Positions 52,536-57,878 of a DNA stretch of 64,000 nucleotides are shown in pieces. This stretch comes from Acidimicrobiales bacterium (GTDB lineage Bacteria; Actinomycetota; Acidimicrobiia; Acidimicrobiales; RAAP-2): positions 1 through 64,000 of the forward strand of contig JANYFR010000028.1 in assembly GCA_025362585.1 (NCBI GenBank), given 5' to 3'. A program made the position numbers and the translations under genes. Under the pieces are notes generated by a model. It had not been told where the DNA came from, did no database searches, and was given only the letters and a program-made list of their open reading frames with translations. Each line of letters opens with the position of its first letter. Position 1 is the stretch's first letter.

Positions 52536-55618
<3,083 letters not shown>

Positions 55619-55645
55619 TCCGTCCTTAGTAGGTTTGGGTTGCAC

Positions 55646-57586
55646 ATGGCACCTTCGACCTTCGCCCCCGGCCACCACCTCGTGAGTCGCTACCGCATCG
55701 AGGAACTCTTGGGCGTCGGACAGACCGCCGAGGTTTACCTCGCCCAGGACCTCTCGCTCCAGCGCACGGTCGTCGTCAAGGTCCTGTTGCCCCAGTTGGC
55801 CGAACACGAGGACGTGCGCCGCGCCTTTCGCGACCGGATCGTGCGCGCGGCCACGCTCAGCCATGCGCACCTCGCGCGCGTCTACGACGGCGGCCAAGAG
55901 CACGGCGCGATCTTCATGATCACCGAGTACCTCGGCGGCGGCTCGCTCGAGGACGTCCTCGCGTCGGGCCGAACCCTCGACGTCGACGACGGCGCACGTT
56001 TGGGACGCGACGTCGCCAACGCGCTCAGCTACGTCCACGACAACGGCTTCGTGCACGGTGCACTGTCGCCGTCCAAGCTGCTCTTTGACGACGAGGGCCG
56101 CGTGCGCGTGAGTGACATCGCGCTCGCCGGCCTCGGGGCCGCCTACCGCCTGCGCTTCACTCTCGACGACGTGCGCTACCTGAGCCCCGAACAGGCGATT
56201 GGTGACCCCGCCGGGGCCGAGAGCGACGTCTACGCACTCGCGCTGATTATCTTTGAAGCGGTGACTGGTCTCACCGCCTTTGACGGCCTGACGCCCGAGG
56301 CGGTGCTGCGCGCACGGATCAACGCGCCCTTGCCGGTGCGTCCGGAGCTCGGCACCCTCGACATGCTTCTCGCCCAGGCCGCCGTGCCCGACGCGCGCCT
56401 GCGTCTCGACGCCGAGCAGTTCGCCAGTCGACTCAGTGGCGTCATCAGCAACGCCGCGCCACTGGTCGTTGCCCCGGTGCGACGCGAGCTCCCACTGCTG
56501 GCCTCCTTCACGGCTCCCGAGCCGCGTAACTCGATTGGTTTTCGCCCGCCCTCGCCCGATCAGGTCGTCGGTGCGCCCGGTCCGGCGCCGACGCTCGCCG
56601 CGCGCAGCCCCAACCTGGCGCGCCCGCGCTCGACGGGCGACTGGACGCCCTCGGGTCGTGACGCGGGCACGCCGCTGCGTCGTACCGCGCCGCGCGGGCT
56701 CGAGCAGCTCGAGTACGAGAGCGCCGGACGACGGCGTCAGTTGGCCTTCGCCGTGGCCGCGCTGCTGTTGCTCGTCATCGCCGTCGGCGCCGGGGCCGCG
56801 TGGAAGTTCGGCCTCTTCAGTTCGAACAACACGGTGCCATCCCTGATCGGGGTCAGCTTCAACGCGTTGCAGCGTCCCTCGAATCCGCTCACGACCCAGC
56901 TGAAGGCCGACGGGTTTACGGTGACGGCGAACCTGCACCGGTATTCGACGTCGGTCGCGAAGAATGAGATCATCAGCCAGTCACCGGTCGCCGGCACCAG
57001 CGCCAAGAGCGGCCAGGTGATCACCGTGACGATCTCGGACGGTGCGGTGCTGGTGAAGGTGCCGATCGGCCTCGTTGGCGAGGACTGCGCGACGGCGACG
57101 TCGCAATTGGCGACGCTCAAGATTAACGCCCAGTGTCCCACCTCGGCCTCGGTCGCCAGTACGGTGACCCCCGTCGGACGGGTAGCGCGGGTGCTACTTC
57201 TGAATGGCAAGACGGTGCCCAGCGCGGTGCCGGCCCACACCACCCTCGTGCTGGCGCTCAGTTCGGGCCCGGGCACGTCCACGTCAACCACCACCACGAC
57301 CGTCGCCACGGCCACCACGACGACTACGGTCGCCCCCACTACGTCGACCTCAACGACAACGTCAACGACCACCACGACGGTCGCTCAACCACTCGTCACC
57401 ACGCCCAACCTCGTTGGCAAGAGTCGGGCGCAGGTCCGCGCCGCGATGCACGGCATTGGCCTCTACTACACGACGAGCGGTCCCGGGTCGGGAGCGACGC
57501 CGACGTGGAAGAGGGTCGTGTCGCAGATCCCGCGGGCGGGAACCAAGGTCAAGCGGTTCTCGACCGTCTCGCTCAATGTCCGATGA
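55646..57586 (+). CDS. PASTA-domain receptor with degenerate (pseudo)kinase domain
   Basis: 646 residues. Residues 15-265 have a Ser/Thr kinase fold: Gly-loop GVGQTAEVY, Lys45 in VVVKVL, Asp157 in SDIA, and YLSPEQA...ESDVYALALIIFE. The catalytic HRDxxxxN reads HGALSPSK, so the HRD Asp is Ala139 and the Asn is Lys144; DFG reads DIA; the alpha-C Glu position seems to be Arg64. A juxtamembrane linker, one membrane helix (about 367-387), two PASTA-like repeats, a Thr-rich linker (about 541-580) and a third PASTA repeat follow. It probably senses peptidoglycan or lipid II without phosphorylating. ATG at 55646 is chosen; TTG at 55640 is possible. Confidence 0.9.
   Translation: MAPSTFAPGHHLVSRYRIEELLGVGQTAEVYLAQDLSLQRTVVVKVLLPQLAEHEDVRRAFRDRIVRAATLSHAHLARVYDGGQEHGAIFMITEYLGGGSLEDVLASGRTLDVDDGARLGRDVANALSYVHDNGFVHGALSPSKLLFDDEGRVRVSDIALAGLGAAYRLRFTLDDVRYLSPEQAIGDPAGAESDVYALALIIFEAVTGLTAFDGLTPEAVLRARINAPLPVRPELGTLDMLLAQAAVPDARLRLDAEQFASRLSGVISNAAPLVVAPVRRELPLLASFTAPEPRNSIGFRPPSPDQVVGAPGPAPTLAARSPNLARPRSTGDWTPSGRDAGTPLRRTAPRGLEQLEYESAGRRRQLAFAVAALLLLVIAVGAGAAWKFGLFSSNNTVPSLIGVSFNALQRPSNPLTTQLKADGFTVTANLHRYSTSVAKNEIISQSPVAGTSAKSGQVITVTISDGAVLVKVPIGLVGEDCATATSQLATLKINAQCPTSASVASTVTPVGRVARVLLLNGKTVPSAVPAHTTLVLALSSGPGTSTSTTTTTVATATTTTTVAPTTSTSTTTSTTTTTVAQPLVTTPNLVGKSRAQVRAAMHGIGLYYTTSGPGSGATPTWKRVVSQIPRAGTKVKRFSTVSLNVR
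57266..57390 (+). repeat. Low-complexity Thr-rich coding repeat in the PASTA receptor
   Basis: An imperfect run of ACC/ACG/ACA threonine codons with Val, Ala and Ser, about 40 residues, separates PASTA 2 from PASTA 3. It is a likely extended, possibly O-glycosylated, extracellular linker. Repeat slippage could change its length between strains; this is inference. Confidence 0.6.
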
Positions 57587-57878
57587 TCGCGGATGCGACC
57601 TCTGTGAGGGCGCCGTCATCACTACTCGTTACTTCGCCGACGACGACTGCTGGATCGCGGACTGCGAGATCTGTCTCGTGCCAATGGTCGTCTGGCGGGT
57701 CCACGACGCCGCGCCACCTCCCGACGTGCTGACCCGACTCCACCACGCCCTCTCGCATGTCGCCGACGAGGCCCTCGGTGAGGGGAACTGGACGATCGAC
57801 GACCACATGCGCAACATCCCCGACCACTACCACGCGCACGCCCGTCCGCCGTACTTTTGGCGGCGTGCGTCAACGTAG
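57576..57878 (+). CDS. Conserved Cys/His-rich small protein, unknown function
   Basis: 100 residues. Five cysteines are arranged CDLC (7, 10), Cys25, and CEIC (30, 33), and the C-terminal IPDHYHAHARPPYFW has three closely spaced histidines. WIADCEICLVPMVVW and DHMRNIPDHYHAHAR recall a conserved actinobacterial family without known function. Metal binding, probably zinc, is likely. The ATG lies inside the 3' end of the PASTA receptor gene (11-base overlap), so the two are translated together and may act together. Longer upstream starts read the receptor in another frame. Confidence 0.85.
   Translation: MSDDRGCDLCEGAVITTRYFADDDCWIADCEICLVPMVVWRVHDAAPPPDVLTRLHHALSHVADEALGEGNWTIDDHMRNIPDHYHAHARPPYFWRRAST

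Follow-up and report, generated by a model that had tools for sequence, protein, structure and literature searches.

A predicted PASTA pseudokinase encoded downstream of ligA is retained across a genus of Acidimicrobiales

Results

The gene downstream of ligA encodes a PASTA receptor whose kinase domain has lost catalytic residues

The gene that follows ligA in the window (the whole stretch of 64,000 nucleotides analysed here, which lies in contig 53, one of the 64 contigs of a 2.09 Mb genome) encodes a PASTA receptor with a kinase fold and without the HRD Asp, that is, a pseudokinase as judged from its sequence. The catalytic losses recur throughout the genus, the gene is retained under selection, intact relatives occupy the same locus in other genera, and kinases with intact motifs are encoded elsewhere in this genome. 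The protein is very probably catalytically dead but functional. Our preferred reading, to which we give a probability of roughly 0.4, is that it acts as a ligand-sensing receptor that would regulate a live kinase through its N-lobe.

Counted from an in-frame TTG upstream of the ATG at 55646, the ORF (55640-57586) comprises 648 aa. Residues are numbered here from that TTG, whereas the sequence-only reading counted from the ATG and its values are lower by 2. Only 27 bases separate ligA from the ATG. Pfam Pkinase matched residues 18-219 (91.7 bits) and Pfam PASTA matched two stretches, while one more PASTA-type domain was seen only in the AlphaFold2 model (mean pLDDT 84.4, pTM 0.50) and was not matched by Pfam even at E 1. 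The cysteines of this domain, Cys 483 and Cys 499 (window 57086-57136), are invariant in 19 aligned orthologues and possibly form a disulfide. The closest solved folds to the pseudokinase domain were M. tuberculosis PknA and PknB (Z 30-33, rmsd ~2), and the juxtamembrane segment between this domain and the helix was modelled with low confidence. Altogether, the Pfam matches and the model point to the predicted layout of a PASTA receptor, with a kinase fold, one membrane helix and PASTA repeats, in agreement with the PknB layout that had been proposed for the gene after ligA. The features are collected in Table 1.

Table 1. Features of the ligA-pseudokinase locus in the window (residues numbered from the TTG at 55640)
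Feature	Position	Strand	Basis or conservation
ligA, upstream neighbour	53591..55618	+	ORF list; named by sequence
PASTA-receptor pseudokinase gene (predicted)	55646..57586	+	ORF list, Pfam Pkinase and PASTA, AlphaFold2 model
Pseudokinase domain, residues 12-282	55673..56485	+	pLDDT mostly >90; fold search
R17, equivalent to PknB Arg10	55688..55690	+	77/77 main clade, 57/57 intact
L40, equivalent to PknB Leu33	55757..55759	+	74/77 main clade, 57/57 intact
Retained beta3 Lys (K47)	55778..55780	+	Lys in 73/77 main-clade rows
Alpha-C Glu replaced by Arg (R66)	55835..55837	+	R/H/Q/N/K 77/77 main clade; E 57/57 intact relatives
D83, equivalent to PknB Asp76	55886..55888	+	77/77 main clade, 57/57 intact
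Catalytic loop HGALSPSK, Lys146 at metal Asn	56054..56077	+	Lys146 in 65/77 main-clade rows
DIA for DFG, Asp159 retained	56114..56122	+	D 76/77, F 0/77, G 0/77 main clade
Juxtamembrane motif EPRxSIGFRPPSPDQxVG, residues 294-311	56519..56572	+	R296, G300, F301 77/77 main clade
Single membrane helix (predicted), residues 364-389	56729..56806	+	Helix in model, hydrophobic sequence
PASTA 1	56825..57037	+	Pfam match 56897-57040, model
PASTA-like domain 2 with two Cys (483, 499)	57050..57262	+	Model strands
PASTA 3, beyond Thr-rich linker	57392..57583	+	Pfam match 57395-57580, model

The register of the catalytic motifs was taken from a HMMER alignment to M. tuberculosis PknB. In this alignment the beta3 Lys corresponds to K47, the catalytic loop replaces the canonical HRDxKPxN (HRD Arg to Gly, HRD Asp to Ala, HRDxK Lys to Ser, metal Asn to Lys), the P+1 Thr is an Asp, and the DFG motif keeps its Asp with both Phe and Gly replaced. 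The alpha-C Glu has become R66. The Gly-loop, the beta3 Lys and the DFG Asp are still present; the Ala at the third Gly-loop glycine is ancestral and not a loss, because it is also found in 56/57 intact relatives. No other HRD or DFG stands in register anywhere in the PknB alignment of the protein. The sequence-only reading had described a PASTA pseudokinase with Ala139, Lys144, DIA and an apparent Arg for the alpha-C Glu, in which Lys45 and the Gly-loop remained; the PknB alignment bears out each of these assignments, and the HRD and DFG losses stand.

The catalytic losses are shared by the genus

A family search over 172 genomes matched 160 of them at E 1e-40, including 92 of the 99 genus members. 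Among the seven unmatched genus genomes, five had no ligA match at all, in a sixth the contig ended 318 bases from ligA, and in the seventh ligA itself was cut by the contig end; since the site downstream of ligA is unassembled in all seven, no assembled gene-free site was seen. Rows were drawn from the family matches listed, weaker ones being absent from them, as are three of the matched genus genomes (G143, G163 and G180). The genus set comprised 88 readable orthologue rows from Acidimicrobiales-type bins, divided by hand into 77 main-clade and 11 early-branching or incomplete rows; the close relatives include isolates from palsa, bog and fen. The 57 relatives of the intact set came from 17 further genera within the family (50 rows) and from seven other families of the order (7 rows); L065, L066 and the three rows of genus g22 were excluded from it and are described apart. 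L036, whose kinase half is missing, was left out of all residue counts, and L164, which belongs to the 88 rows despite a missing beta3 region, was scored as not Lys.

Results showed that all 88 genus rows keep between 0 and 5 of the 10 canonical catalytic residues (2 in 65 rows), so that chance or sequencing error does not explain the losses; most of the genomes are probably metagenome bins, and single-row oddities such as L066, L116 and L158 may be errors, but not the 88-row pattern. Among the 57 intact relatives, 54 have all 10 residues and 3 have 9. The HRD Asp is missing in 78/88 genus rows and the metal Asn in 88/88. At the HRD Asp position the 77 main-clade rows hold A (18), S (17), E (17), D (10), G (9), T (2), Q (2) and two more; the HRDxK Lys is left in 1 of these rows, the P+1 Thr in 7 and the metal Asn and alpha-C Glu in none. 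The F-helix Asp (77) and the APE Glu (75) persist together with the beta3 Lys and DFG Asp, and E31 of the Gly-loop is fixed (77/77). When the 86 positions with at least 95% conservation in the intact relatives were considered, the main clade was found to hold 33, to hold 27 partly and to fall below 50% in 26; most of the catalytic set is among the lost positions, and K47 and D159 are not. The activation-loop threonines of the intact relatives (T168 in 56/57, T177 in 55/57) are mostly gone from the main clade, T177 being left in 7/77.

Across the genus, K47 is kept in 75 of the 87 rows with a letter there and the DFG Asp in 85/88. The DFG Asp is present in all 75 rows that have the beta3 Lys, and the 3 rows without D159, two of them sisters, also lack K47. 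As for the pair formed by beta3 Lys and alpha-C Glu, 74 of the 88 rows have Lys without Glu, 7 have Glu without Lys, 1 has both and 6 have neither, one of the six being a missing stretch. K47 is lost in 8 of the 10 early-branching or incomplete rows with a letter there, and therefore ATP binding cannot be a genus-wide need. In addition, the adenine-facing Ala of the VAIK motif is Val or Ile in 62/77 main-clade rows, a change that could hinder ATP.

Intact relatives at the same locus and the history of the losses

All 88 genus loci with upstream DNA have ligA upstream, and so do 37 of the 57 intact relatives (32/50 in the family, 5/7 in the order). In the available upstream DNA of the other 20 (18/50 and 2/7; 71 bases in one case) no ligA was found, and the orthology of these relatives therefore rests on sequence, supported for L037 and L041 also by a downstream SDR gene. 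The presence of intact relatives at the same place suggests that the ancestor was a live kinase.

A tree built without the motif columns and without this genome's intact kinases gathered the 87 genus rows to one side with an SH-aLRT of 93.7 (not starred) and implied four state changes in all: in the genus, in g22, in L066 of g24 and in L116 of g20. Of the four residues scored, the beta3 Lys is the only one that L116 lacks, and it was counted within the 57 intact rows. A possible clade of the genus (g1) with g21 and g22 was neither established nor rejected (p-AU 0.43; SH-aLRT 84 in the tree with the intact kinases). These two kinases were also tried as root and rejected, their long branches falling inside the intact rows. 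The three g22 rows (L112, L114 and L119) have lost the HRD Asp (HGA), carry Arg at beta3, DFR, DFS or DFH for DFG and no P+1 Thr, and keep 4-5 of 10 residues; by these motifs g22 is a second small group of predicted pseudokinases. The single g21 row (L065, genome G061), whose gene also follows ligA, shows HGD at the HRD motif and no P+1 Thr, keeps the HRD Asp, Lys, Asn and DFG (8 of 10), and is likely an intermediate between live and dead forms. L066, from genome G071 of an otherwise intact genus, represents a separate loss, with HSA, TPTN, DFG kept and 7 of 10 residues.

No confirmed relative was found in viral contigs. A 100-aa ORF without Pfam match overlaps the stop codon (57576-57878) and was considered as a partner. 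It was rejected: the ORF lies downstream in 69/77 genus loci with enough DNA, in 6/6 family loci outside the genus and in 0/5 order loci, and since it also follows intact family relatives it is not tied to the catalytic loss.

Selection acts on the probably dead domain and on the juxtamembrane segment

The kinase-domain dN/dS ranged from 0.03 to 0.17 in 14 close genus pairs, which are not all independent (L018 and L029 are each in two pairs), and from 0.04 to 0.125 in seven intact pairs; dS is near saturation in some pairs. The constraint on the dead kinase domain is about the same as that on live kinase domains. The one g22 pair gave 0.012, a rough value because dS exceeds 1. For the juxtamembrane segment, 13 of the 14 genus pairs gave a dN/dS value, which lay between 0.05 and 0.20, compared to 0.14-1.12 in the seven intact pairs.

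The pattern R.S[IVL]GF, within the juxtamembrane motif, occurs in 73/88 genus rows and in 0/62 rows outside the genus, where L117 and L119 have SIGF without the Arg. The looser GFxxP is found in 16/62 rows outside the genus, all from near genera, which indicates that the motif was sharpened and not invented. In the C-lobe, E236 (76/77), D241 (75/77) and A245 (75/77) became near-fixed in the main clade. Short Thr motifs (DLTELG, DELTQ) recur in the juxtamembrane segments of many intact relatives, and none was present in the genus segments examined.

The N-lobe face is retained and its surroundings are rewritten

An intact PASTA kinase, of the kind that the sequence-only reading had imagined as a true kinase elsewhere, was found on contig 60. 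This PknB has four PASTA stretches, scores 574 bits against NF033483 and belongs to a run that also encodes FhaA, a second FHA protein, a PP2C phosphatase and a penicillin-binding protein. A second kinase with intact motifs is encoded on contig 31, and both FhaA (FhaA_N and FHA) and FhaB are present in the genome. PASTA was also matched in two frames without kinase match, one of 108 aa on contig 48 (18108-18302, L007) and one of 382 aa on contig 63 (18991-19377), and these frames may represent additional PASTA sensors.

The N-lobe dimer face of PknB, which we take to consist of R10, L33 and D76, has its equivalents in R17, L40 and D83 of the window protein, and the titles of PDB entries among the PknB fold matches name the mutants D76A and L33D. 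A structure alignment covered 37/80 loci (19 genus rows and 18 others). The conservation of these dimer residues is also at least 90% across 38 aligned rows, 18 of which are other bacterial kinases, and for this reason their retention is weak evidence for pairing. Near D83 and in alpha-C, the main clade has changed W to G at position 84, E to Q at 86 and L to R at 60 (77/77 each), A to I at 67 (75/77) and P to I at 91 (68/77). Such rewriting would fit a change of partner. PknB itself is activated allosterically by N-lobe dimerisation (PMC3601408).

Discussion

The loss of most catalytic residues in a gene that stays intact across the genus, when the counterparts in sister genera look live, suggests a non-catalytic partner or scaffold. 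In the reading that we prefer, the kinase domain would no longer carry out phosphotransfer and would still be folded, perhaps still holding a nucleotide. The PASTA domains would bind a peptidoglycan-derived ligand, the receptor would gather at sites of wall growth, and its N-lobe would pair back-to-back with a live Hanks kinase, either the contig 60 PknB or the contig 31 kinase, switching it on or off. With the alpha-C Glu gone, Lys47 might pair with the DFG Asp159, and by analogy with known pseudokinases Lys146 at the metal Asn position might stand in for the cation, locking a single conformation.

The analogy comes from eukaryotic proteins that are not close relatives, and the regulatory role here is only inferred. 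In HER3 and JAK JH2 a bond between Lys and the DFG Asp replaces the Lys-Glu bond, and in STRADalpha the cation is replaced by a His at the Asn position together with an Arg at DFG (PMC4718504). Like HER3 and JAK JH2, the window protein has lost the alpha-C Glu and kept the beta3 Lys and the DFG Asp, and Lys146 could act like the His of STRADalpha. A bolder version of the preferred reading, which we regard as unlikely, makes the protein the bacterial equivalent of HER3. A receptor for wall ligands would have turned into a dead partner for live PASTA kinases, apparently a single time and at the base of the genus, and the Lys at the metal Asn would act as its built-in cation. The steps of this change would be preserved in the intact relatives found at the same locus and in one near row in which only the HRD Arg and the P+1 Thr have changed.

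Among the alternatives, we gave most weight to a pure wall-tethered scaffold, doubtful as it seems, in which the dead domain and the juxtamembrane motif would anchor proteins of the divisome or of wall synthesis where PASTA ligands occur, with no contact to a kinase. The juxtamembrane segment evolves under lower dN/dS in the genus than in the intact pairs, three of its residues are fixed in the main clade and the C-lobe has gained near-fixed positions, all of which such a scaffold would account for. However, the presence of GFxxP in near genera means that the motif did not arise with the catalytic loss, and a scaffold working through the C-lobe would not need the rewriting of alpha-C and of the stretch beside D83.

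Forkhead domains read phospho-Thr, and in another, MviN-like scenario a live kinase would phosphorylate the pseudokinase so that FhaA or FhaB could dock on its phospho-Thr. The sequence-only reading had compared the protein in principle with the pseudokinase domain of mycobacterial MviN and had considered a scaffold for forkhead-domain partners. The likeness is that of a pseudokinase tied to cell-wall control in a genome that also encodes PknB; FhaA and FhaB are present here as well. MviN (ActPs3) is fused to the lipid II flippase, its phosphorylation by PknB recruits FhaA, and it lacks the beta3 Lys and DFG and is deficient in ATP and magnesium binding, according to PMC12599244. The window protein differs from it in keeping Lys47 and Asp159 and in not being fused to MurJ. 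The MurJ of this genome (549 aa) is encoded separately, on contig 58; its sole Pfam match is MurJ, and it has no kinase-like extension. No MviN chain was among the 50 matches listed per fold search, which excludes nothing. Moreover, at an 80% cut-off in the 77 main-clade rows there is no conserved Thr in the juxtamembrane segment, where only S298 and S305 are conserved, nor anywhere in the cytoplasmic part outside the kinase domain; the conserved T29, T72 and T209 all lie inside that domain, and the activation-loop Thr of the intact relatives has mostly disappeared. Consequently, the earlier interpretation stands in part: the pseudokinase, its pocket residues and the intact kinase elsewhere hold, while the MviN comparison and the forkhead scaffold are weakened to the point of looking improbable. 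The idea of an allosteric partner would fit better.

An unusual catalysis, in which Lys47 and Asp159 would allow phosphotransfer, AMPylation or some different reaction to proceed non-canonically, could appeal to the retention of both residues and to the Asp at the HRD position in 10/88 rows. We find it very improbable: all ten of these rows lack the metal Asn, other main-clade rows have A, S, E, G, T or Q for the HRD Asp, and the HRDxK Lys and the P+1 Thr are nearly gone. That the gene is simply decaying, as free drift at many catalytic positions might indicate, is hardly credible given the lack of internal stops among the matches listed, the low dN/dS and the fact that the seven genus genomes without a match are those with an unassembled site.

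Compared to known systems, the protein shares with PknB, StkP and PrkC (NCBIfam NF033483) the order of kinase, membrane helix and PASTA, a fold matching PknB at Z 30-31 and the N-lobe dimer residues, but lacks their catalytic HRDxKPxN and DFG and scores 245.3 bits against NF033483, under the curated cut-off of 450. The intact PASTA kinases of the family and order have the same layout, many of them after ligA, and unlike the window protein retain 9-10 of 10 catalytic residues. Seven families of bacterial pseudokinases are covered by a 2025 review (PMC12599244), in whose text PASTA occurs only in the title of a reference. According to the same text, ActPs2 pseudokinases have a beta3 Arg, HRN and, in most members, a long activation-loop insert, and DYD pseudokinases combine a beta3 Arg with a DYD motif; the window protein has instead Lys47, HGA, DIA and, in the PknB alignment, no long insert. 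A PASTA pseudokinase was not described in the titles and abstract openings of the literature matches listed, subscription papers aside, and a search for pseudokinases of Acidimicrob- found no paper.

A PASTA receptor that is dead and yet kept genus-wide would show that the non-catalytic half of such receptors, that is, ligand binding, placing and pairing, is worth keeping alone. Sister genera, which carry intact relatives at this locus, would then offer a ready comparison for the roles that these receptors play without phosphorylation.
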